A stretch of 64,000 nucleotides of DNA from Gudongella sp. (GTDB lineage Bacteria > Bacillota > Clostridia > Tissierellales > Tissierellaceae): positions 1 to 64,000 of the forward strand of contig JANKMX010000001.1 in the NCBI GenBank assembly GCA_024649995.1, given 5' to 3'. Below are positions 56 to 15,909 of this stretch, in pieces. Positions within the stretch are counted from its first letter, which is position 1; every line of letters begins with the position of its first letter. Position numbers and translations under genes: made by a program. Under the pieces are notes generated by a model that saw only the letters and a list, made by a program, of their open reading frames with translations, was not told the origin of the DNA and did no database searches.

Positions 56-1516
56 TTAGGATGCTTTTTCGGCTACTCTACCGTCTTGCTTAACCGGGTC
101 TCCATTATCACCCTCAAATTCTCTTCCCCAACCGGTGACAACTGAGTAGCTTAGTACCAAGAATAACACCAGTGGATAGAATGAAGAATATGCGATTTGT
201 ATCGGGCTGATATCCTCAATGAAGGAATATTCACCCTGCAGACCTTGAACGACTGTAAGGACTATGAATATAAAAGCACTTATAAAAGGCAGAACTGTTG
301 GAAGAGTGTTTGCAAATCCATCAATTAGATTTGCTCTTCTGTATGGATGTAGATTTTTTTCCTGGCCTAGTCTATTTGCAATAGGTCCAAACATTATTAT
401 TGCCGGTCCACTTGCTGCACCTAGGGTCAAACCGCTGAACATAACTCCAAGAGCCATAACAGCCTCTGTACCTGCAACTGAAGTGGCCATTTTACTAGTT
501 GATAACCCTTCGATAACTGCATCCATAGTACCACTGGCCTTCAATAATCCTATCAAGGAGAACAGTGAGATACTGAAGATTACCAGACCCATCATATTTT
601 TGACCCCGTCATAAATGAATCCTGAAAATACAAACTCCTCTAGCATTATTATGTCACTGAAGGAGATTATGTTAAATAGTATACCGACGACTGACCCAGA
701 AACTATACCCCAAGTTAGTGCAATAAATATATCCCTGGTCTTGATTGCTACATAAAGTAGTATTGCAACAGGTATTAGCATGATTAAACCTTTTGGATTG
801 CTGTATGTAGCTAGAATGTCTTCTGCTCCAGATCCTACTGAACCACCACCGCCAAATATGAAGAACAATACCATGGATATCAGAGCGGCAGTAATCGCAT
901 ATTTGAATCTAGATGCAACAACACCCCCAATATCTGCACTACCTTCCTTGTTTTGATATTGCTGGGTTGCAGCTGATGCTATTGTTGTGTCTGAAACGGG
1001 TGCTAGGTTATCCCCAAATATTGCACCACTCAGAATGGCACCAGCAAGTGTCAATGGATTAGCTCCAAGAAGTATACCTGAGGGGTATAATATTGGAAAA
1101 GCTGAAAATAAAGTTCCGATTGAGGTTCCTGTAGCTGTTGCAATAACACATGTTGCAACGAATGTGAAAGCTGTAAATAGTCCTCCGGTCAAGCCTATCA
1201 TATTTCCTAACCATACAAATCCCTGAGCGACACCACTTCTTGCCATAAGAGCAGTAAAAATACCTACGACAATCAAGATCATCATCAATACAGCATTCAT
1301 TGGATCTGATACGCCATCAAGAACTGCTTGCCAGTAATTTTTCCAATTCTTGGCAAACAAACTTCCTACAAGAAGACCGATGAATCCACCAGTTGCAAGT
1401 GCCTCCATCTCAAAAACCTTAAATACCACGAAGAACAAAACGCAAAATAAGATGAAGATTGCTAAAGGAATTAATGCCATAAACTTGCCACCATGAAACT
1501 TAACTTTGTAGTCCAT
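56..1516 (-). CDS. nhaC: NhaC-family Na+/H+ antiporter
   Basis: 486 aa multi-TM protein with NhaC-like glycine-rich motifs (GAIFGDNLAPVSDTTIASAA). Confidence 0.8.
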   Translation of the reverse strand: MDYKVKFHGGKFMALIPLAIFILFCVLFFVVFKVFEMEALATGGFIGLLVGSLFAKNWKNYWQAVLDGVSDPMNAVLMMILIVVGIFTALMARSGVAQGFVWLGNMIGLTGGLFTAFTFVATCVIATATGTSIGTLFSAFPILYPSGILLGANPLTLAGAILSGAIFGDNLAPVSDTTIASAATQQYQNKEGSADIGGVVASRFKYAITAALISMVLFFIFGGGGSVGSGAEDILATYSNPKGLIMLIPVAILLYVAIKTRDIFIALTWGIVSGSVVGILFNIISFSDIIMLEEFVFSGFIYDGVKNMMGLVIFSISLFSLIGLLKASGTMDAVIEGLSTSKMATSVAGTEAVMALGVMFSGLTLGAASGPAIIMFGPIANRLGQEKNLHPYRRANLIDGFANTLPTVLPFISAFIFIVLTVVQGLQGEYSFIEDISPIQIAYSSFYPLVLFLVLSYSVVTGWGREFEGDNGDPVKQDGRVAEKAS

Positions 1517-1581
1517 TAATTAATCCTCCCTTTCTTATATAGTAGTACAGCACTAAAATATCAGAAAATTAAGAACAAAGC

Positions 1582-1597
1582 TGTAAACCACTTTACA
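1582..1597. promoter_or_regulatory. Crp/Fnr-type operator TGTAA-ACCACT-TTACA upstream of nhaC
   Basis: Perfect 5-6-5 palindrome; same half-sites as 2393..2408. Confidence 0.6.
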
Positions 1598-1638
1598 AAA
1601 GTGCAATAAGGATACAAATAATGGATTAAATTATATTT

Positions 1639-2334
1639 TTATGTATAAAGTTTATGAATGTCATTAATAACTATTAAACCACCTTTTTTTTCTAAAATTT
1701 TTTTACTCAACATTTCACTCATAACATTGGAGACGGCAACTCTACTTAAGCCTGTCAGATTCGCCATCTCTTGGTGAGTAAATTTTTCTCTTAAACAGCA
1801 TTTATTGTCTAAAAAATCTCCATGTGCAAATGCAAATTTAAGCAGATAAGACTTTACCCTGGAACTTGCATCTGCAAAGTTTAGGTTCGTCAAATTGTTT
1901 GAAAGAACACGTACTTTTTTTGCAAATGAGTCAAGTACTAAACTATTTAGGGAGGGATTGGCAATTAGGTCTGATAAAAATCTTTCCTTAGGAACTCTTA
2001 AAACAATTGAATCAACTATACAGATGGCTCCTGCGTAATTTGGTAATCCATCTATTGCAGCCAAGTCACCGAACAAAACACCTCTCTCCACTATACATAA
2101 GCATTGTTCAGAGCCGTCCTTACTCGTCACGAATATTCTTACCCTTCCCTCCATCATTATATAAACGTAATCAACTATGCTACTTTGCAAATAAATTATT
2201 TCATTTTTCTTGAATGTTCTCTTAAACTCATCATAATTGAGTTTCTCAAAATTCACATCATCTACCCGTATCCAAGGAGAATAGTCTTTAATGTCATAAT
2301 CATAATCATAATCCATTGCCAAACATCCTTTCAT
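1639..2334 (-). CDS. Crp/Fnr family transcriptional regulator
   Basis: cNMP-binding fold (GVLFGDLAAIDGLPNYAGAICI) plus HTH (FTHQEMANLTGLSRVAVSNVMSEM). Confidence 0.85.
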   Translation of the reverse strand: MKGCLAMDYDYDYDIKDYSPWIRVDDVNFEKLNYDEFKRTFKKNEIIYLQSSIVDYVYIMMEGRVRIFVTSKDGSEQCLCIVERGVLFGDLAAIDGLPNYAGAICIVDSIVLRVPKERFLSDLIANPSLNSLVLDSFAKKVRVLSNNLTNLNFADASSRVKSYLLKFAFAHGDFLDNKCCLREKFTHQEMANLTGLSRVAVSNVMSEMLSKKILEKKGGLIVINDIHKLYT

Positions 2335-2392
2335 ATGGTGATGGGTATATTATATCAGAAATAATATAAAAATTATGAAAATTCGTTTAAAA

Positions 2393-2408
2393 TGTAAATC
2401 ACATTACA
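2393..2408. promoter_or_regulatory. Crp/Fnr-type operator TGTAA-ATCACA-TTACA in divergent crp/BMC promoter region
   Basis: Perfect 5-6-5 palindrome; TATATT -10-like hexamer at 2430..2435 puts its centre about 41.5 bp from the inferred TSS. Confidence 0.65.
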
Positions 2409-2481
2409 GATTATTACGAGCATCATGTGTATATTTATCATATAGGATGGAGTAATAATAAAATATAAAGGAGGATTGCAA

Positions 2482-2763
2482 ATGTCTGCATATGGATTTA
2501 TTGAGACAAAAGGATACGTGGCTTCTATAGAAGCTGCAGATACTATGGTAAAGGCAGCAAATATCGAGGTAGTGGATATTATCAAGATTGGAGCTGGCTA
2601 TTCCACAGTGGTAATCAAAGGAGATGTCGGAGCTGTGAAAGCCGCATTGGACTCGGGAGCTGAAGCAGCTAGATCAGTTGGTGAACTAGTTTCAGCACAT
2701 GTAATACCAAGACCGAACGAGGACTTGTTAAATTTATTTATTGACCTAAAGGATGTTCAATAA
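2482..2763 (+). CDS. BMC-H microcompartment shell protein (paralogue 1)
   Basis: GFIETKGYVASIEAADTMVKAANIEVV...[17 protein letters not shown] is the canonical BMC fold; ATG at 2482 follows AAAGGAGG. Confidence 0.95.
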   Translation: MSAYGFIETKGYVASIEAADTMVKAANIEVVDIIKIGAGYSTVVIKGDVGAVKAALDSGAEAARSVGELVSAHVIPRPNEDLLNLFIDLKDVQ

Positions 2764-2779
2764 GTGAGGAGGCATTAGT

Positions 2780-4177
2780 ATGAAAAAATTCTACACAGCA
2801 TATGATGTTGAATATGCGCTGTCTAGAGGTGAAAAGATAATTTATATCAACGAAGGTGATGTTATCACTGATATTGCTAAAGAAACTGCTGAAAAAAACG
2901 GAGTAAGTTTCTCGAGCTTAGCAAATGATGCTAGTATTGGTGATAATATGACAGATAGAAATGAATTATACAACAATGTCTCTAAGTTCAACAAGGTAAT
3001 AAGGGCTGACTACAAGAACTTGATGTCTGAAGACGAAATAAATAAGTGGAGAAACGAATTCCCAATCCTAAAAAACATAATACATGTTGGAAATTGCTCT
3101 CAAAGTGCACAAGCTGTAAGTGTTAGAAATTCCATAAACAAATATTTGGACAATTGGTTAACGGTGGGAATGGATTGGGAATCATGGGTGGAGGAAACAT
3201 ACAAAGCCAAAGTAGAGTTCGCTAAGCTTATTAATGCGGATCCTTCAGAGATTGCATTATCAACATCTGTATCAGAGGCTGTATCTACAATCGCCAGTTC
3301 GTTGGATTACACAGGGAAAAGGAAAAAAATACTTGTAACCGATGCAGAATTTCCAACTATAAATTATATATGGTTGGCTCAGCAAAAATATGGAGCTAAG
3401 GTGGATTTTGTTTCTGTTAACAAGGAGCATCAAATCGACATCGAGGAGTATGACAGATATATTGATGAGGATACCTTATTGACATCTGTTACCCAAGTGT
3501 ATTATCTGAATGGATTCAAGCAGGACATAGCCAAAATTGCTGAGAAGGCTCATAGAAAGGGATCATTAATACTAGTTGATGCATATCAGGGACTTGGGAC
3601 TGAACCAGTTGATGTTAAAAAGATGAACATTGATATACTTGTGTCTGGTAATCTAAAATACCTGTTTGGAATACCTGGTATAGCATTTATGTACGTAAAC
3701 CCAAATTTGACAAGTATGTTAAAACCATCTGTTACTGGTTGGTTTGCTCAAGAGAATCCTTTCCTTTTCCAGACAAGGTACATTGACTGGGCTAATGATG
3801 CAAGAAAATTTGACAACGGTACTCCTCCAGTCTTGACATCTTATGCCGCAAGAGCAGGCATGCAAATTACCAACGAGGTTGGAGTAGATAGGATAAAAGA
3901 CAGGATTGATATGTTGAGTGCTCATGCTTTACAAGGATGTCTGGATAGGGGGCTCAAATGCATAAGCCCATTTGATGTAAATAAAAAGGGTGGAACTACT
4001 GCGATTTGGGTTTCTGACAAGATTGACTCACATTCTATGGAAGTTGAGCTAAAATCAAGAAATATAATAGCATCTGCTAGAGGTGATGTCATAAGAGTAG
4101 CACCTCATTTCTACACAAAACCAGAAGAAATTGACTATGTGTTAGACCAAATACAGGATATTTATCTAAGGAAGTAG
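2780..4177 (+). CDS. Class V aminotransferase / cysteine desulfurase-like PLP enzyme with N-terminal BMC-associated domain
   Basis: Class V fold motifs (ILVDAYQGLGTEPVDVKKMNIDILVSGNLKYLFGIPGIAFMYV with candidate PLP Lys); about 85 aa N-terminal extension resembling EutQ-type N-terminal domains. Confidence 0.85.
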   Translation: MKKFYTAYDVEYALSRGEKIIYINEGDVITDIAKETAEKNGVSFSSLANDASIGDNMTDRNELYNNVSKFNKVIRADYKNLMSEDEINKWRNEFPILKNIIHVGNCSQSAQAVSVRNSINKYLDNWLTVGMDWESWVEETYKAKVEFAKLINADPSEIALSTSVSEAVSTIASSLDYTGKRKKILVTDAEFPTINYIWLAQQKYGAKVDFVSVNKEHQIDIEEYDRYIDEDTLLTSVTQVYYLNGFKQDIAKIAEKAHRKGSLILVDAYQGLGTEPVDVKKMNIDILVSGNLKYLFGIPGIAFMYVNPNLTSMLKPSVTGWFAQENPFLFQTRYIDWANDARKFDNGTPPVLTSYAARAGMQITNEVGVDRIKDRIDMLSAHALQGCLDRGLKCISPFDVNKKGGTTAIWVSDKIDSHSMEVELKSRNIIASARGDVIRVAPHFYTKPEEIDYVLDQIQDIYLRK

Positions 4178-4186
4178 GTGCAATTT

Positions 4187-4453
4187 ATGAATTTATGCAG
4201 AGTAAAAGGGAAATGCGTTTCAACTATTAAGGATGACAGCTTAAAAGGATATTCATTAGTTGTCATACAAATGATTGATTCCAAAGGGAATGATTATGGA
4301 GACATGATAATTGCAGTCGATAAGATAGGCTGCAGTATTGGAGAAGAGATAATTGCAGTAATAGGTAGTAATGCAAGGTATGGTCAAGATAGATCAGAAA
4401 CAGTCATTGATGCAGTGATTGTTGGTATAATTGATGAAGTAAATTATGAATAA
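4187..4453 (+). CDS. BMC-P (EutN/CcmL family) vertex protein
   Basis: About 90 aa, N-terminal [28 protein letters not shown] and C-terminal [12 protein letters not shown] typical of EutN/CcmL; GTG start at 4178 also possible. Confidence 0.9.
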
Positions 4454-4469
4454 AACGAGGAGGGATCAT

Positions 4470-4733
4470 ATGAAATCCAAAGGATTTATTGAAACTAAAG
4501 GTTTGGTAGCAGCAATTGAAGCTGCTGATACTATGCTTAAGGCAGCTAATGTTGAAATAGTGGGTAAGAAGATTATAGGTGGAGGCCTTGTCACAGTAAT
4601 AATTGAGGGGGACGTAGGTGCAGTAAAGGCAGCTTTAGATGCGGGCGCAGCGGCTGCGCAGAAGGTTGGAGAACTGGTTTCAGCACATGTCATTTCTAGA
4701 CCGAGCTCTGAAATAGAGGAATATCTAGATTAA
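4470..4733 (+). CDS. BMC-H microcompartment shell protein (paralogue 2)
   Basis: [63 protein letters not shown] 4470 after AGGAGGGA. Confidence 0.95.
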
Positions 4734-4818
4734 GATCCTTGCGTGGAAAGTACAAATTGTTTTATCAGGAGCAATAATGCAAGAAAAACTGAACAATCTT
4801 GCAGTGAGGGGTGATTGA

Positions 4819-5445
4819 ATGACGGATAATATTGCTTTAAGAACATATATAATTGTTGATCGTATGCAGCCTCAGTATTCAAGTATTACCGGAACAGTTG
4901 TAAAGGGGGATGTATGTTTGCCTGGAATGTCCCAATTATATATTGAGGTTGAACCAGGTAGTGAAGTGTATAGGATGCTTGACATAGCGGTGAAAAGCAC
5001 AAATGCCAAGCCTGGATTTCAGATAGTTGAAAGAGAATATGGAGAGATTGAACTGCACTCAAACTCAATAGAGGAAGTGACACAGGCAGGAGAGGCTATT
5101 CTCAACGAATACGGTCTGAGGATCAATGATAGAATCAAACCAAGGATTATTTCTGAACAAGTTATAACAAATATTGATGCTTTACAGGCACAGCTTATCA
5201 ACAGAGATAATCGACTTGGCTCTATACTGGTGCCAGGTGAAACGGTTTATGTTTGCGAAGTTGAACCAGCTGCATATATATCTATAATAGTAAATGAGGC
5301 AGAGAAAAACTCTGATATTAAAATAATCAATTTCGATCCTGTGGGCAGATATGGAAGAATGTATGTATCAGGAACGGAGTCCAATATTAGAACTGTCAAA
5401 GAAGTGGTAAAATCAGTCCTGGACAGAATAGAAGGTAGGGATTGA
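4819..5445 (+). CDS. Tandem-domain BMC-T shell protein (divergent)
   Basis: 208 aa; two related halves (LPGMSQLYIEVEPGSEV / VPGETVYVCEVEPAAYI), located in a shell gene cluster. Confidence 0.75.
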   Translation: MTDNIALRTYIIVDRMQPQYSSITGTVVKGDVCLPGMSQLYIEVEPGSEVYRMLDIAVKSTNAKPGFQIVEREYGEIELHSNSIEEVTQAGEAILNEYGLRINDRIKPRIISEQVITNIDALQAQLINRDNRLGSILVPGETVYVCEVEPAAYISIIVNEAEKNSDIKIINFDPVGRYGRMYVSGTESNIRTVKEVVKSVLDRIEGRD

Positions 5446-5446
5446 T

Positions 5447-6943
5447 ATGAGTTATGACAGGTTTGAGTCCTATATCAAGAAGTTGGAGAATAATGATAAA
5501 GGATATTTTGATGTTCAATCTGAGATATACAATAATGAGAATATTAATGTGTTGAAAAAATCAAATAAACTAGATATTATGAAGCCTAGTGAAAATGATG
5601 AATATGATTTGGCAATAATAAACGGATCATTAGTAATACCTGATGAAGGTATTGTTAAGGAGAATGTGTACATCAGGGATGGTATCATTTTGAGTATTGG
5701 GAAAGATAACAAAAAAATAGCTACAAAGACAATTGATGCTCAAGGTAGGTATGTCATCCCTGGAATTGTTGACCCACATGTGCATTTGGGTATTTATGAA
5801 TCCTTCGAAAAAGAGATTGAAACTGAGACTAGAGCAGCCCTGCATGGAGGAATAACAACAATGGGAGTTTACTTTGGAGGTCAACACTCACATTTTAAGA
5901 CATATCCTTCAATACAGGATTTTACAGATTCAAAATCTTATGTTGATATAATACCTCATTTTGTGATTTCAACAAACGAACAGGCATATGAAATGGGAGA
6001 TTACAATAAGTATTTTGGTGTTAACTCTTTTAAGGTGTACATGAATGGTATCCCTGAAATGATTCCAGATGTTAATGATGACTTTATAATTAATGTGTAT
6101 GAGAAGATAAGAAGCATGGACAAGGATGCAATTTTATGTGTACATGCTGAGAATAACAGCATTATCAAATGGGCATACAAGAAAGTTAAGAAGGAAAAAG
6201 GTGATGCCGCGTCAATTTCCGATTGGACCGACACACATCCTGCTGAAGCAGAAGTTGAGGCTATCCAAAGGATTGCGGAGTATGCAAAAATGTTCCAAAT
6301 AAAGACATACGTTGTTCATATATCTTCTTTGGAGGGCATAGAAACCCTAATCAGACTTAAGGGAAACAATCCATACATTTATGGTGAGACAACTTCACCA
6401 TATCTATCAATCACAAGAGATTGTTGCAATAAGAATATTCTAATGGAGCCACCTGTTCGTGACAAAAAAGATGTGGAAGGTCTTTGGAAAGCAGTTGGAG
6501 AAGGTAAAGTTGATACCATAGGCACAGACAATGTTTCTTTAACACAGGATGAAAAGAAAATCAATAGTCCTGTATGGGAAATGCTCCCAGGTTACAGTGT
6601 TTTGGAGACACATTTGGCATCAATTTTAAATGAAGGTTATCACAAAAGAGGTATATGTTTAGAAAAGTTGGTCCCTCTTATTACAAAGAATCCGGCTAAA
6701 ATATTTGGTGTTTATCCAAGAAAAGGTACGATTGCAGTTGGTAGTGATGCTGACGTGGTAATATTGGATATAAACAAGGAATCAAAGGTTAGTGGGAGCA
6801 AGCTCATATCGAGAACGGATTTTTCTCCATATGAAGGAAAAACTTTGAAAGGATGGGCGAGTTTGGTCATTAAGGATGGCGTGATAGTAGTAGAAGATGG
6901 AGTTTCATCAGTTAAAACCTCTTCTGGAAAGGTTTTGAAGTAA
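5447..6943 (+). CDS. Dihydropyrimidinase/hydantoinase/allantoinase-family amidohydrolase
   Basis: Metal-ligand motifs retained: DPHVHLG, SFKVYMNG (carbamylated Lys candidate), CVHAEN, VVHISS, IGTDN. Confidence 0.88.
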   Translation: MSYDRFESYIKKLENNDKGYFDVQSEIYNNENINVLKKSNKLDIMKPSENDEYDLAIINGSLVIPDEGIVKENVYIRDGIILSIGKDNKKIATKTIDAQGRYVIPGIVDPHVHLGIYESFEKEIETETRAALHGGITTMGVYFGGQHSHFKTYPSIQDFTDSKSYVDIIPHFVISTNEQAYEMGDYNKYFGVNSFKVYMNGIPEMIPDVNDDFIINVYEKIRSMDKDAILCVHAENNSIIKWAYKKVKKEKGDAASISDWTDTHPAEAEVEAIQRIAEYAKMFQIKTYVVHISSLEGIETLIRLKGNNPYIYGETTSPYLSITRDCCNKNILMEPPVRDKKDVEGLWKAVGEGKVDTIGTDNVSLTQDEKKINSPVWEMLPGYSVLETHLASILNEGYHKRGICLEKLVPLITKNPAKIFGVYPRKGTIAVGSDADVVILDINKESKVSGSKLISRTDFSPYEGKTLKGWASLVIKDGVIVVEDGVSSVKTSSGKVLK

Positions 6944-6944
6944 T

Positions 6945-6985
6945 AAAAATACCCTGACATTAGCATTGAGTGTCAGGGTATTTTT
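6945..6985. terminator. Bidirectional terminator between convergent BMC operon and ptb
   Basis: AAAAATACCCTGACA / TGTCAGGGTATTTTT perfect 15-bp stem. Confidence 0.9.
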
Positions 6986-7028
6986 ATGGAGAAATCATAT
7001 TGTGGATTATTCTATTTCGAGTAATTGG

Positions 7029-7934
7029 CTAACTTTGACTACTAAGATAACTAGAAGCAGCAATAGAAATTAGCTTGTCCTCAACAGAATCAGACCTTGA
7101 TGTCATAACCAGTGGGCTGCTAGTGCCTATTATAACAGAGCCTATTCTTTTTTGTGCAAAATAAGTTATTGCCTTGTGTAAAACATTCCCCATCCTAATA
7201 TCTGATACAGCTAGTATATCAGCCATTCCTGCCACAGGGCCAGTTACACCTTTGTGCTCAGCAGAAGTTCTAGAAATCGCATTATCCAATGCGAAAGGCC
7301 CATCGACAATGCAGTTCTTAATCTGACCCCTGTCGTTCATTTTACTAAGTGCAGCCGCATCAAGAGTTTCTTGCATATTTGGATTTACGGTCTCCAAAGC
7401 CGTCAGCATTGCAACTTTTGGGCAGTCATACCCAAATTTTCTCGCCAGGTAGACTGCATTGTTTACTATGCTTATTTTATCCTCCAAAGTCGGATTTATG
7501 TTCATGGCACAGTCAGTAATAAAATTCAAACCGGTTCCATCGATTTTATCTGTGATAGTTATTTGGGAGATCAGAGATCCGGTTCTAAGTCCCTTTTCCT
7601 TATCCAAAACTGCTCGCATAAAGGTTGCAGTGGACAGCAGACCCTTCATGGGCATTTGAGCTTTACCGGATGTTACAAGCTCAACAGCCATTATTGCACA
7701 GGCTTTATCATCGAAGGCTTCGACAATTGGTACCTTTTCAAGCTTGTAATTACCCTCAGAAATATACTTCCTAATTGTATCAGGGTTCCCAACAAATATA
7801 AAGTTGGAGATTCCTTTTTCCAAAGCTATATTAGCTACACTTAGAATATCGTGATCTGCTGCCTGAGCTACTGCAATGGTATTTTTTGGAAGATACTTAA
7901 CCTTCTCAAGTATTTCATCAAGTGACTTTATCAT
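7029..7934 (-). CDS. ptb: Phosphate butyryltransferase-family phosphotransacylase
   Basis: MPMKGLLSTATFMRAVLDKEKGLR, DGPFALDNAIS motifs; adjacent to butyrate kinase. Confidence 0.88.
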   Translation of the reverse strand: MIKSLDEILEKVKYLPKNTIAVAQAADHDILSVANIALEKGISNFIFVGNPDTIRKYISEGNYKLEKVPIVEAFDDKACAIMAVELVTSGKAQMPMKGLLSTATFMRAVLDKEKGLRTGSLISQITITDKIDGTGLNFITDCAMNINPTLEDKISIVNNAVYLARKFGYDCPKVAMLTALETVNPNMQETLDAAALSKMNDRGQIKNCIVDGPFALDNAISRTSAEHKGVTGPVAGMADILAVSDIRMGNVLHKAITYFAQKRIGSVIIGTSSPLVMTSRSDSVEDKLISIAASSYLSSQS

Positions 7935-7952
7935 AAAACGCTCCTTTCAATT

Positions 7953-9032
7953 TTATTCGTATTCCTGGATTGGCCACTTTCCAGTTACAGCATTCATTGC
8001 TCCATCAACTAGTGATGCAAGCTCATCTTCACCAGGGTAAAGGTGAATTGGAGCAATAAACTCACACCATTCAGTTAGTCCTTTTACTATATAGTCAGAG
8101 TAAGCCAATCCCCCAGTAAATGCAATAGCATCAACTTTTCCCTTCAGTGTTACTGCTGCGGATCCGATACTTTTTGCAATCTGATAGATCATGGAATCAT
8201 AGACTTCCTTAGCTTTTTGGTCTCCTTGTTCGATTAGCTTTTCAACTTCCTTACCGTCTTTTGTTCCAAGGTGGGCAAAAAGTCCGCCTTTTCCGTTAAC
8301 TTTCCTGTATAGTTCATTATATGTGTATTCTCCGGAGTAAGCGGCTTTCAATACTTCTCCAATAGGGAGTGTTCCTGCTCTTTCCGGAGCCATTGGGCCG
8401 TCCCCGTCAAGTCCGTTGTTCACATCCTCAACCTTGCCTTTGTTATGGGCTGCTATAGACATTCCACCGCCCATGTGAATTATAATGGCGTTGATTTCAT
8501 CATACTCTCTTCCTAGTTCAGCAGCAAGCTTTCTGCCGACAGATTTTTGATTAAGAGCCTGATACCAGCTTTTTCTATAAATATCTTTCCAGCCTGTGTA
8601 TCTTGCTTCTGCTATTAATTCATCAATGCAAGGAGCATCTACGGTGTATGCTTCCACATTTAACTCTTTGGCCATATCATGGGCAAGTGCACAGCCAACT
8701 CCACAAGGGTGATTTCCGTACTTTCTACTTCTAGCATCAGCGACCATATTATCGTTGATTCTGTATGTACCACTGTTCATGGGTTTTATTGGAGCCCCTC
8801 TTGAGACAAGAAAATCAAAGTCTGTCATCTTGTAGCCATGGCTACTGACAAAATCTTCTATGGCGTTTTTTCTGAAGTCGTATTGTTCCCAGATGTCGTT
8901 GAATTTAATGAAGGAATCATCTGTTTCATGGCGGATTGTCTCCTGGTGCAAGCAATTTCTGTCCTGGAATATAGCAACTTTGGTTGAAGTGCTACCTAGG
9001 TTTAATACAAGTATTTTATTTGTGCCTGACAT
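7953..9032 (-). CDS. buk: Butyrate kinase-family acyl kinase
   Basis: ILVLNLGSTSTKVAIF, IIHMGGGMSIAAHNKG, DGDGPMAPERAG, AFTGG motifs. Confidence 0.93.
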   Translation of the reverse strand: MSGTNKILVLNLGSTSTKVAIFQDRNCLHQETIRHETDDSFIKFNDIWEQYDFRKNAIEDFVSSHGYKMTDFDFLVSRGAPIKPMNSGTYRINDNMVADARSRKYGNHPCGVGCALAHDMAKELNVEAYTVDAPCIDELIAEARYTGWKDIYRKSWYQALNQKSVGRKLAAELGREYDEINAIIIHMGGGMSIAAHNKGKVEDVNNGLDGDGPMAPERAGTLPIGEVLKAAYSGEYTYNELYRKVNGKGGLFAHLGTKDGKEVEKLIEQGDQKAKEVYDSMIYQIAKSIGSAAVTLKGKVDAIAFTGGLAYSDYIVKGLTEWCEFIAPIHLYPGEDELASLVDGAMNAVTGKWPIQEYE

Positions 9033-9075
9033 TATTTCGCCTCCTTTATTTACTTATTTTTAATTTATCCCAGAA

Positions 9076-9111
9076 CAAAAAAGAAAACTGTGTGAAAAAG
9101 CACAGTTTTCT
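9076..9111 (-). terminator. Terminator for the second crp gene (minus strand)
   Basis: AGAAAACTGTG/CACAGTTTTCT stem followed by T-run on minus strand. Confidence 0.75.
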
Positions 9112-9148
9112 GAATAATGACATGAGATAATGGATTTAATTCAGAATG

Positions 9149-9874
9149 CTATTCTGATTCTGAAAGAAAATCATTTAATTTATGTAAGTCAGGACAACAA
9201 ATGGTACGCTTGTGTTTACATATTAGCTTTTGTTTTTTAAGTTTATTAATTGCTTTTGTGACAGCTTCTCTTCTAGTACCGATCATATCAGCGATTTCTT
9301 GGTCGGTAATATTAATCTCAAGGTGTTGGCCATCATCGCATACACCATTATAAGTACAATTTTCAGAGGGGATAGTACTGTTTATTGAACATTTCCGTCC
9401 AAAAGAATCAAATAGGCTAAGTAATAAAACAGCTACTCTTTGCTCTATCTTTAAAAAGGACATATACTCAACTTGGAATGAAAGTAGTCTTATTTTTCGG
9501 CCCATAGACTCGAATACCTGGAATACGATTTCAGGGTAGTCTTTGAATAATTTGATTAATTGATCTTTTGAGAAAAATAAAATTACCGAGTCCTTTAAAG
9601 CTTGTGCATTTGTGAAGCTTGGATGCTGGTCAAAAAAAGCAGTTTCGCCAAAAAAGGAGCCTGGTTCATGTATTGCTAATGTCTTTTCTGAACCACTTGA
9701 ATCAATTAAGTTGACTTTGATTCTACCACTGATGAGGAAGTGAAGATATTTTTGTACATCATCCTGTTGGTAAATGAGGCTACCCTCAGTATAGGATTTT
9801 TTTATATTTGAATAACTGAGCAATAATTCATTAATATCTGTATCGTCAATGACCCAAAGTGATTTATACAGCAT
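9149..9874 (-). CDS. Crp/Fnr family transcriptional regulator (second paralogue, Cys-rich C-terminal half)
   Basis: cNMP-like domain (EPGSFFGETAFFDQHPSFTNAQAL) and HTH (ITDQEIADMIGTRREAVTKAINKL). Confidence 0.85.
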   Translation of the reverse strand: MLYKSLWVIDDTDINELLLSYSNIKKSYTEGSLIYQQDDVQKYLHFLISGRIKVNLIDSSGSEKTLAIHEPGSFFGETAFFDQHPSFTNAQALKDSVILFFSKDQLIKLFKDYPEIVFQVFESMGRKIRLLSFQVEYMSFLKIEQRVAVLLLSLFDSFGRKCSINSTIPSENCTYNGVCDDGQHLEINITDQEIADMIGTRREAVTKAINKLKKQKLICKHKRTICCPDLHKLNDFLSESE

Positions 9875-10019
9875 TTAGAGACCTCCTTTTATAAACTTTG
9901 ATTAATTAACACTATATCACAGATTCAAAATTAATTGAAGTAAAGGTACTATGGGAGGTTTAGAGGCTGTTAGATAAAGAAGTTGTTCATACATTGTTAA
10001 AAAATAGGGAGGGATAAAT

Positions 10020-10577
10020 ATGAAAGAAATTAGAATTCATGGTAGGGGAGGTCAAGGTGCTGTAACTACATCTGAGATTATTGTCTACGCAGCAGTTGAA
10101 GATGGTAAATATGGTGCTTGTTTTCCTTATTTCGGTTTTGAGAAAAAAGGAGGTCCGGTTAGTGCATTTGTGAGAATTGACGAGAATAAGATTAGAGAGA
10201 AGAATCAAGTTTATAACCCAAACTGTGTAATGGTAATAGATCCAACACTATTAAGCAGTGTGGACGTATTTGTGGGTGCAAAAGAAGAGTCCATATTGGT
10301 TATAAACACAAAATCAATTGAGGATATAGAAATCCCAGAAAACATAACAAAAGTAGCATATGTGGATGCTAACGCTGCGTCGATGGATATATTTGGACGA
10401 TTACTTCCTAATACTATCGTATTAGGTGCCTTTGTTAAAGCTACGAACTGGGTTAGCTTCGATAAGGTAAGTGAAAAGACTCAAGCAATTTGGGGTCCAA
10501 AGAATATAGAAGCATTAGAGTATGGTTACAATAATGTTGTTATTGTTGATGTGAATGGAGGGGTCAATCGTGACTAA
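10020..10577 (+). CDS. 2-oxoacid:ferredoxin oxidoreductase gamma subunit
   Basis: EIRIHGRGGQGAVTTSEIIVYAA...YGACFPYFGFEKKGGPVSAFVRID. Confidence 0.92.
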   Translation: MKEIRIHGRGGQGAVTTSEIIVYAAVEDGKYGACFPYFGFEKKGGPVSAFVRIDENKIREKNQVYNPNCVMVIDPTLLSSVDVFVGAKEESILVINTKSIEDIEIPENITKVAYVDANAASMDIFGRLLPNTIVLGAFVKATNWVSFDKVSEKTQAIWGPKNIEALEYGYNNVVIVDVNGGVNRD

Positions 10578-10824
10578 GACTGAATTTATATGTGCAGTAG
10601 GTAAGGAACTAAATATCATCAATACTGGAGATTGGAAGATGTATCCGGTAGTTATAGATCAGGAAAAATGCGTTAAATGTAGTATGTGCTTCCAGTATTG
10701 TCCAACAAAATCTGTAAAATATGTTGATGGAACGTACTTCATAAACCCTGATTTTTGTAAAGGCTGTGGAGTTTGCATAGAAGAATGTCGATCTAATGCC
10801 ATCGATTTTGTTAAGGGGGAATAA
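10570..10824 (+). CDS. 2-oxoacid:ferredoxin oxidoreductase delta (2x[4Fe-4S]) subunit
   Basis: CVKCSMCFQYCP and CKGCGVCIEECR; GTG start at 10570, or ATG 10555. Confidence 0.9.
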   Translation: MTKTEFICAVGKELNIINTGDWKMYPVVIDQEKCVKCSMCFQYCPTKSVKYVDGTYFINPDFCKGCGVCIEECRSNAIDFVKGE

Positions 10825-10826
10825 CT

Positions 10827-12014
10827 ATGAGTAAAAAACAAGTGTTAAACGGAAACCATGCAGCAGCTATAGGAGCACTTTTAGCAAAACCAGATGTTGT
10901 AGCTGCTTATCCAATAACCCCACAGACTCCTTTGGTTGAATACTTTAGCCAATATGTAGCTGATGGTGTTATGGATTCTACCATTGTGGAACCAGAGTCA
11001 GAGCACTCAGCAATGAGTGTATTGACAGGTGCATCACTGGCCGGGGCGAGAACATTTACTGCAACTTCATCACAGGGGCTATCATTGATGTTTGAGCCTT
11101 ACTTTAGAGCATCCACTATGAGGTTGCCCATAGTAATGAACATTGTTAATAGAGAAATGATATCGCCTCAAACAGTATGGGGTGGACCTCAGGATTCATT
11201 AACAGTTAGAGATGCTGGTTGGCTTCAGATTTACGTGGAAGATAATCAAGAAATTTTGGACATGAATATTCAAGCATTTAAGATTGCTGAACATAAAGAT
11301 GTATTACTTCCAATTAACATCTGTTACGATGGTTTTTACTTATCTCATATGACAGAGGGAGTAGAAGTTCCAGATCAAGAGGATGTTGCAAATTTCATTC
11401 CACCATATAAGCCAACACATGTTAAGCTAGATCCTGAGACACCTATGGCAGTGGATCCACTAACACCAGGAGACTACCTTCAGTATTATAGGGAGTTACA
11501 TATGGAAGCAATGGATAATGCAAAGAAGGTCATCAAGGAAGTAAATGATGAATTTGCTGCAAAATTCGGGAGAGATTACTTTGGTCTAGTTGAACCATAC
11601 AAAATGGAAGATGCTGAATATGTACTAGTAACACTCGGTTCATTAACTGGGTCAGCTAGAATTGCAGTAGATTTGGCAAGAGAGAAGGGCGTAAAGGTAG
11701 GATTAGTAAAAATTAGATGTTTAAGACCGTTCCCTAAAGACGAAATTGTAGAACTATTAAGAGACAGAAAAGCTATTGGTGTTATAGATAGAAATGTAAG
11801 CTTTGGTTGGCATACAGGAATTGTATATCAGGAAATAAAGTCAGCTACAAGCACTCTTGAAGCTGTCCCAACTATTCCATTTGTTGGTGGTCTTGGTGGA
11901 GAGGACTTGACCACTGATCTTATGAGTGAGGCAATTGAAAAAGTTTTGGAAGTTGCCGATAACGGAAGCATTGAGAATAAAGCATATTGGCTTATAAATA
12001 CAAAGGGGAGATAA
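10827..12014 (+). CDS. 2-oxoacid:ferredoxin oxidoreductase alpha subunit
   Basis: GNHAAAIGALLAKPDVVAAYPITPQTPLVEYFS...EPESEHSAMS; PorA-like. Confidence 0.93.
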   Translation: MSKKQVLNGNHAAAIGALLAKPDVVAAYPITPQTPLVEYFSQYVADGVMDSTIVEPESEHSAMSVLTGASLAGARTFTATSSQGLSLMFEPYFRASTMRLPIVMNIVNREMISPQTVWGGPQDSLTVRDAGWLQIYVEDNQEILDMNIQAFKIAEHKDVLLPINICYDGFYLSHMTEGVEVPDQEDVANFIPPYKPTHVKLDPETPMAVDPLTPGDYLQYYRELHMEAMDNAKKVIKEVNDEFAAKFGRDYFGLVEPYKMEDAEYVLVTLGSLTGSARIAVDLAREKGVKVGLVKIRCLRPFPKDEIVELLRDRKAIGVIDRNVSFGWHTGIVYQEIKSATSTLEAVPTIPFVGGLGGEDLTTDLMSEAIEKVLEVADNGSIENKAYWLINTKGR

Positions 12015-12017
12015 TCT

Positions 12018-12923
12018 ATGAAACTAGCTGAGAGAATGTCATCTTATGAAGATATGGTTGGTCCTGGAATAACAGCATGTTCAGGATGTAATGTTGAGCT
12101 TTCAATGAGGACCGCTCTTCAGATACTTGGACCAAATACTATTGTAGCTGTTCCTCCTGGATGTATGGGAGGAGTTCAAAGTGTAGGGTGGGCAGATAAA
12201 ACTGGGATGAAAATACCTGTTTTCTTTCCACTGCTAGATAATACTGCATCTATGTTAAGCGGGATCAAGAAATATTATGAAAGAATAGGTAGAGATGTAA
12301 ATGTAGTTGCTTTTGCAGGGGATGGCGCAAGTGTTGATGCAGGTTTCCAAGCACTTTCAGGAGCTGCCGAAAGAGGAGATAATATAATTTACATTTGCTA
12401 TGACAATGAAGGATATATGAATACAGGCTTTCAGAGAAGTAGTTCAACATCATTGGGATCTTGGACATCGACTACACCAGTTGGAGATGCCTCACACGGT
12501 AAGTCTTCTCATAAGAAAGATATGCCAATGATTATGGCGATGCATGATATCGCATATATGGCTACTGCATCACCAGCATACATGCCTGACCTAATTAGAA
12601 AAATTGAAAAGGCTAAGACTATCAAGGATGGATTAGTGTACATTCACATATATAATAGCTGTACAACAGGTTGGGGTTATCCTTCCGAGAAAAGTATAGA
12701 TATTGTAAGAAAAGGTGTTAAATCTAGATTTATGCCAATATACGAAGTGGATCATGGAAAATTCAAGTTAAATGTTGATATTAAGGATCCAATACCTCTA
12801 ATGGATTACTTGTCATCAATGAAGAAGTATAAACATCTTAGTGAGCAACAAATTGAAGAGCTACAAAAATATGTAGACGATAAATGGAAGAATCTTAAAA
12901 CCCTATGTGAAGTAATGGGCTAA
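12018..12923 (+). CDS. 2-oxoacid:ferredoxin oxidoreductase beta (TPP) subunit
   Basis: CSGCNVELSMRTAL...FAGDGASVDAGFQALSGAAERGDNIIYICYDNEGYMNTG TPP motif. Confidence 0.93.
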   Translation: MKLAERMSSYEDMVGPGITACSGCNVELSMRTALQILGPNTIVAVPPGCMGGVQSVGWADKTGMKIPVFFPLLDNTASMLSGIKKYYERIGRDVNVVAFAGDGASVDAGFQALSGAAERGDNIIYICYDNEGYMNTGFQRSSSTSLGSWTSTTPVGDASHGKSSHKKDMPMIMAMHDIAYMATASPAYMPDLIRKIEKAKTIKDGLVYIHIYNSCTTGWGYPSEKSIDIVRKGVKSRFMPIYEVDHGKFKLNVDIKDPIPLMDYLSSMKKYKHLSEQQIEELQKYVDDKWKNLKTLCEVMG

Positions 12924-14901: not shown

Positions 14902-15909
14902 ATGAATATTAGAAAGATTATGATGTTAATGTTAGTGTTCGTTATTAGTATGAGCCTAATTGCATGTGGTGGTGGAGCCTCAGAGCCATCTGAATCTGGA
15001 GAAGAGCAAGAAGTTGTATTAAAGGTTAACTCAGCTTGGGCAGAGGGTAACAGCTTGCTTTGGAACATGGATGATTTTGTTCAAAAAGTAGAAGAAAAGT
15101 CAAATGGAACCGTGAAAATTGAGTGGGGTGGAGGACCTGAATCAATACCTACATATCAACTAGTTGAAGCATTGAAAAATGGGATTGTTGATATAGCTTG
15201 GACAGCTCATACCTACAATGTATCCAATGTACCGGTATTAGAAGCTATGAAGTTAACAGATGCTGCTACTATGAGAGAGACTGGAGGATTTGAGTTTGTA
15301 AATGAGCTTTATAATGAAAAATTAAATAGTCATTATATATCCGCATCTACTGATGGATTAACATATAATCTCTATACAAAAAAAGAAATTACAAGTCTAG
15401 ACGATTTTAAAGGCATGACAATCAGAGCTACCCCAGCATATCAACCATTTGTTGAAGCATTGGGTGCTGGTGTTGTAAACATGGATCCAGGTGAAGCATA
15501 TCAGGCTCTAGAGAGAAATGTTATTCAAGGATATGGATGGCCAAGTGTAGGTGTTACAGACTTTGGGTGGCAGGAAGTATCTGAGTATCTCATCCAACCA
15601 CAATTTTATACTGTTGATGTTGCAATTCTAATGAGCGATGAAGCTTGGAGTCAGTTAAGTGAAAGCCAAAGAGCCGCAATCCTTGAGGCTGGAGAGGAGC
15701 TTGAATCAGAAGCTAGAGCATATTATGAAGGAAAGATTAATGAAGAAAATGAGTTCCTTAAGAGTGAAGGAATGAAGGAAATTGTTCTAGATGGCGCAGA
15801 AGCTGAGGAGTATCTGAAACTAGCATATGAAAAAGGCTGGGAAAGCGCAGTCAAAGTTGATGAAGAAAATGCTTTGAAATTGCAGGAATTTACAGGTTAT
15901 TCTAAGTAA
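14902..15909 (+). CDS. dctP: TRAP transporter solute-binding lipoprotein (DctP family)
   Basis: Lipobox LIACGGG; GMTIRATPAYQPFVEALGA carboxylate-binding Arg motif. Confidence 0.92.
   Translation: MNIRKIMMLMLVFVISMSLIACGGGASEPSESGEEQEVVLKVNSAWAEGNSLLWNMDDFVQKVEEKSNGTVKIEWGGGPESIPTYQLVEALKNGIVDIAWTAHTYNVSNVPVLEAMKLTDAATMRETGGFEFVNELYNEKLNSHYISASTDGLTYNLYTKKEITSLDDFKGMTIRATPAYQPFVEALGAGVVNMDPGEAYQALERNVIQGYGWPSVGVTDFGWQEVSEYLIQPQFYTVDVAILMSDEAWSQLSESQRAAILEAGEELESEARAYYEGKINEENEFLKSEGMKEIVLDGAEAEEYLKLAYEKGWESAVKVDEENALKLQEFTGYSK

Follow-up and report, generated by a model that had tools for sequence, protein, structure and literature searches.

In the Eut compartments of Salmonella, the shell and the cargo are associated through EutQ, and all four of its helices, H1-H4, are required for this association (PMC12487888). 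EutQ lacking residues 9-41 (H1/H2) no longer associates with the shell but is still found with the cargo, whereas EutQ lacking residues 62-99 stays with the shell and loses its association with the cargo; the segment 1-99 is enough to direct sfGFP to Eut BMCs (PMC12487888). Binding of EutM by the first 100 residues of EutQ has also been described in vitro (PMC4827028). In that study the cytosolic face of EutM was assumed to be the docking face, whereas EutQ was placed inside the compartment in the later analysis (PMC12487888). In Pdu compartments, the loss of PduM partly separates the shell from the core, and no sequence homology to PduM was known outside these compartments (PMC12108088).

The window analyzed here is a stretch of 64,000 nucleotides of DNA from Gudongella sp., in which a class V PLP enzyme is encoded among shell genes. 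A sequence-only reading of this stretch had proposed that the N-terminal segment of the enzyme resembles the N-terminal domain of EutQ and of other BMC enzymes, and that it either targets the enzyme to the shell or forms the enzymatic core.

The locus and its putative compartment type

The PLP enzyme is encoded by an open reading frame of 465 aa (2780-4177, +), located directly downstream of a gene for an EutM-like BMC-H shell protein (2476..2763, +; likely start ATG 2482) that matched PF00936 with an E of 1e-27 and the NCBIfam EutM model with an E of 2e-29. The start ATG of the enzyme lies 16 bp past the stop codon of this BMC-H gene and 7 bp 3' of a GAGGAGG ribosome-binding site (2766-2772). 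The genes that follow encode an EutN/CcmL-type pentameric vertex protein (4178..4453, +; PF03319, E 4e-24), a second EutM-like BMC-H protein (4446..4733, +; likely start ATG 4470; PF00936, E 2.6e-28), a CcmP-like double-BMC (BMC-T) shell protein (4819..5445, +; NCBIfam CcmP, E 3e-68) and a hydantoinase/dihydropyrimidinase-like amidohydrolase (5447..6943, +), matched over residues 57-497 by the NCBIfam D-hydantoinase model (E 3e-80). A full shell set (BMC-H, BMC-T and EutN) was thus found, and no aldehyde dehydrogenase was detected among the genes scanned (56-12923 and 14902-15909). In both respects the locus resembles the BUF-type BMCs (PMC4207490, PMC8217296), and the PLP enzyme is probably the signature cargo of a microcompartment of this type, which lacks an aldehyde dehydrogenase.

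The hydantoinase-like amidohydrolase is likely a second cargo enzyme. Comparison among orthologues showed that it is extended at the N-terminus by some 50 aa or more, and that this extension differs from the EutQ-N module described below. At its start, the extension (window 5447-5600, +; loci L004-L009) has a DIFxxYIKxL-like motif that is conserved and reads MSYDRFESYIKKLENN in the window; a second stretch, similar to INILREISSKLDKL, is conserved as well. The extension may be the encapsulation peptide of the amidohydrolase itself; its amphipathicity was clearly above that of shuffled sequences in only some of the orthologues.

A four-gene 2-oxoacid:ferredoxin oxidoreductase set (window 10020-12923, +) follows the BMC genes, as it also does in the orthologous loci L004, L006, L007 and L009; this arrangement suggests a pathway in which a 2-oxoacid is formed and then converted to acyl-CoA. 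Phosphotransbutyrylase-like and acetate/butyrate-kinase-like genes (window 7029-9032, -) are located between the BMC genes and this set, and their products could lead from acyl-CoA to ATP. The locus also contains two Crp-like regulators and a DctP-type solute-binding protein.

The class V PLP core

The core of the PLP enzyme begins at about residue 84 (residues 84-465 plus the stop codon, 3029..4177, +), and it was modelled with confidence by AlphaFold2. Pfam Aminotran_5 covers residues 141-435 with an E of 2e-41, and K293, which is invariant in the 26 family members compared, is likely the PLP lysine. With this fold and this lysine the enzyme falls among the class V PLP enzymes. All of the curated class V equivalogs of NCBIfam scored far under their cut-offs, including the cysteine desulfurases (IscS/SufS), the best of which, SufS, reached 111.8 bits where 475 is the cut-off, and for this reason the reaction of the enzyme cannot be named. 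The fold family of the core and the likely PLP lysine are shared with the ordinary members of class V (cysteine desulfurase, kynureninase and their relatives), but these do not have the N-terminal module and the linker that precede the core in the window enzyme.

Architecture of the N-terminal region

In the AlphaFold2 model, residues 1-46 of the enzyme (2780..2917, +), assigned to the EutQ-N type by hhalign, form a compact strand-helix-strand-helix-strand fold with a pLDDT of about 77-93. The fold was unchanged from the full-length prediction when the first 56 residues were modelled alone, and this segment is predicted to be an autonomous alpha/beta module capable of independent folding. The module is followed by a variable linker (residues 47-83; 2918..3028, +) in which residues 50-68 have a pLDDT below 50 and are predicted to be disordered; its length ranges from 32 to 53 residues across the domain-bearing orthologues. 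Mean pairwise identity among 11 domain-bearing orthologues was 55% for residues 1-46, 12.9% for residues 47-77, 68% for residues 78-100 and 74% for the rest of the protein. The last stretch of the linker, from about residue 78, is therefore conserved and belongs to the start of the PLP core.

The sequence-only reading had placed about 85 aa ahead of the class V core and had named an AlphaFold model among the means of checking its proposal; the model obtained predicts a separate fold for residues 1-46, a disordered linker and a confident core. The extra N-terminus is real, but the folded domain comprises only residues 1-46 and the remainder is linker. The presence of a linker was also correctly anticipated, but it is rich in N, D and S in the window, and not strictly low-complexity as had been described; in two orthologues it is rich in Pro and Ala. 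The 'TPLAKDYAKEKGI' motif that had been pointed out is present in a degenerate form, ITDIAKETAEKNGV, in which Thr30 and Ala33 are kept but the Pro is lost.

Homology with the N-terminus of EutQ

Residues 1-85 were compared with Pfam and no family was found above the cut-off. The same residues alone were searched against the PDB, and the only match, to DnaC, was judged to be due to chance. The NCBIfam EutQ model (NF012001) aligned colinearly with the window protein, pairing residues 1-51 with profile positions 1-52, with a weak E of 0.02. A much stronger relationship was obtained when the profile of the module family was compared with 14 EutQ N-termini by hhalign: 46 columns aligned colinearly, with a probability of 98.2% and an E of 3e-14. 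Since these 14 N-termini had been retrieved with the window profile, an independent set of EutQ frames, picked by their cupin domain, was added. The module was found at the N-terminus of 26 of these 30 frames, and each of the four frames without a match was under 180 aa. A chance match was excluded, because 3,232 shuffled or reversed control sequences reached a maximum of 7.2 bits, below the 9.7-33.5 bits of the real EutQ N-termini. The proposed resemblance to the EutQ N-terminal domain was borne out by this HMM-HMM comparison: at the level of sequence, homology links the window module to the EutQ N-terminus, where the shell-binding helices H1/H2 lie.

The likeness between the two proteins comprises the 46 colinear homologous residues, their N-terminal position, the flexible linker after them and the location in BMC loci. 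However, EutQ goes on to helices H3/H4, which bind cargo, and then to a cupin, whereas in the window protein the module is attached to a class V PLP enzyme. The EutQ cupin (PF06249) is absent from the window protein, whose C-terminal part is Aminotran_5, and no counterpart of H3/H4 was recognised, with the match to the NCBIfam EutQ model reaching only profile position 52. One orthologue aligned to positions 2-85 of this model (E 0.008), and the stretch past the module may be an alignment of the linker. Pfam and NCBIfam contain no family dedicated to the module, and neither the module nor its fusion to a PLP enzyme was named in any paper found in the open-licence literature searched. The fusion is new, and the module is a known but unnamed part.

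Association of the module with shell genes

A search of 399 genomes drawn from the phylum with the module profile yielded 32 matches at an E of 0.01 or better. For 28 of them, shell genes were present in the stretch of about 20 kb or less around the match; the other four matches were partial, covering 15-33 of the 47 columns, and the proteins concerned included an AAA ATPase and a TetR-like regulator. All of the near-full-length matches were within BMC loci.

The same association was observed for the PLP enzymes. Shell genes were adjacent to the enzyme in all of the 11 genomes in which it carries the module, and in none of the 11 genomes with module-less homologues, where 6.5-20 kb of sequence around the gene was examined. 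Since at least three of these module-less genomes have BMC genes elsewhere, the module is associated with adjacent shell genes and not simply with their occurrence in the genome. The naive p of about 1.4e-6 (1/C(22,11)) for this association treats the 22 genomes as independent; on the tree, the domain-bearing enzymes fall into a single group, so the independent events are fewer than the 22 genomes suggest. The sequence-only reading would have been refuted if the N-terminal segment were integral to ordinary class V enzymes away from BMC loci; this was not the case, as all 11 homologues without adjacent shell genes lacked it.

The single most telling case was found in the genome G199, in which an enzyme with 73% identity has neither the module nor the linker, and no BMC-domain match was detected in this genome (91% complete). 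The G199 enzyme starts with MKKYYS and shares the sequence IIAPEYKGLI, which suggests a deletion of the module. A secondary loss in G199 was not retained as a conclusion because the trees disagree: the enzyme was nested weakly among the domain-bearing ones (80/83) or placed outside them (79/97).

The module on other microcompartment proteins

The module was also detected at the N-terminus of EutQ and of an EutE-type aldehyde dehydrogenase, and at the C-terminus of eut_hyp (TIGR02536) proteins, one of which has a recognisable flavoprotein domain. The dehydrogenase with the N-terminal EutQ-N module, an EutE-type acetaldehyde dehydrogenase, is encoded by a 639-aa frame in the BMC locus L106 (G291:C56).

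In E. coli, 425 reading frames of the eut and pdu regions were searched with a profile from which the rows of E. coli EutQ and EutT had been removed. The top three distinct proteins were EutQ (8e-10), EutT (0.002) and PduM (0.024, third of the 425 frames), each of them matched at the expected end. According to these alignments, EutT likely carries the module N-terminally, on a catalytic domain (cobalamin adenosyltransferase) unrelated to the PLP core. In the eut_hyp proteins the module is C-terminal, and the flavoprotein domain is likewise unrelated to the PLP core.

The C-terminal 40 residues of E. coli PduM (L232:44625-45116) resemble the module. The NCBIfam PduM model also matched the eut_hyp flavoprotein at its module (E 1.5e-5), and these matches are suggestive of homology between the PduM C-terminus and the module. 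A search for the PduM family in 30 BMC genomes gave no PduM above the cut-off, only C-terminal module matches. PduM differs from the window enzyme in the C-terminal position of the module, in an N-terminus that is a core-binding encapsulation peptide, and in having no known enzyme domain. The likeness could account for the shell-core coupling by PduM.

The module looks like a shared cargo-to-shell anchor because it recurs on several unrelated organelle proteins. A general, unnamed metabolosome shell-tether, present on EutQ, EutT, PduM, eut_hyp proteins, some EutE-type enzymes and the PLP enzyme, with the latter acting in this BUF-type organelle, which has no EutQ, as the scaffold between core and shell, is a wider reading that is slightly less likely than not. 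If this were true, PduM would combine an encapsulation peptide and a tether.

Proposed role in shell docking and alternative explanations

By analogy with EutQ, the module would tether the PLP enzyme to the shell. Its most likely docking partners would be hexamers of the two EutM-like BMC-H proteins whose genes flank that of the enzyme, and the enzyme would thereby be held to the shell during assembly and after it, with the flexible linker joining the module to the core. EutM K53 and D57 are conserved in both of the BMC-H proteins of the window, and Q64 is kept besides them in the second one; the conservation of K53 and D57 is permissive only, both residues being common in BMC-H proteins. Neither an EutQ match nor a second copy of the module was found in the window genome, and for this reason the PLP enzyme may itself provide the shell-cargo link that EutQ provides in Eut organelles. 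However, the adaptor role of EutQ may not transfer, since EutQ needs H1-H4 and no counterpart of H3/H4 was recognised here. The present analysis shows the homology, the domain architecture, the predicted independent folding and the association with shell genes; from the comparison with EutQ we infer the binding to the shell, the face and the partner involved, and the scaffold role. Overall, the PLP enzyme, as the probable signature cargo of a BUF-type compartment, is probably docked by the module on EutM-like BMC-H proteins, where it may replace the link made by EutQ.

Of the two roles that had been proposed from the sequence, targeting to the shell has more support than formation of the core, since the module matches the shell-binding half of EutQ (H1/H2) and nothing recognisable here corresponds to H3/H4, the half that binds cargo. 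A core-targeting encapsulation signal, which would coalesce with other cargo such as the hydantoinase and make no direct contact with the shell, is unlikely. Many BMC cargo tags work in this way, including residues 1-23 of PduM (PMC12108088), and a flexible linker is typical of encapsulation tags (PMC12339742), but the two EutQ deletions, 62-99 and 9-41, identify the counterpart of the module as the half that binds the shell (PMC12487888). Moreover, short encapsulation peptides are terminal amphipathic helices of roughly 15-20 residues, whereas residues 1-46 are predicted to be a folded alpha/beta domain. N-terminal regulatory domains are common on enzymes, and the module could accordingly be regarded as a regulatory or assembly domain (an allosteric site or an oligomerisation element) with no role in targeting. 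This is quite improbable for a module that occurs on unrelated enzymes, at either end, and in BMC loci only, that is separated from the core by a linker predicted to be disordered, and that is missing from an enzyme 73% identical.

The module was also compared with the peripheral subunit-binding domain of 2-oxoacid dehydrogenase E2 (PF02817), to which it shows weak motif-level matches. As a relative of this domain, perhaps circularly permuted, it would bind another enzyme and not the shell. Nine of 26 module sequences matched Pfam E3_binding (best E 1.5e-4), and the best PDB match of the profile was 1w4i, a binding domain of PDH E2, with the two halves in swapped order (E 0.016), improving to an E of 0.0035 with a permuted profile. 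Nevertheless, the likeness is limited to short helix motifs, permuted sequences gave no better Pfam score, and the fold search of the module gave no PDB match at an E of 0.001 or better and no E2 domain among the 50 matches listed; the published binding data for EutQ H1/H2 also indicate the shell. This explanation is very improbable. As an observation in its own right, the module resembles the PDH E2 subunit-binding domain at a TPAARxLAxELGV helix, with the halves possibly swapped, and a relation by circular permutation is a suggestive lead.

Significance

Docking on the shell, the preferred explanation, bears on the way in which cargo is fixed to microcompartment shells, an open question beyond a few model systems. 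A portable module of 46 residues on unrelated proteins is a testable candidate for a general tether, and it could be used as a shell tag for engineering. In BMC loci without an assigned function the module is a marker for hidden cargo, and in this locus it marks a class V PLP enzyme as the probable cargo of a BUF-type BMC.
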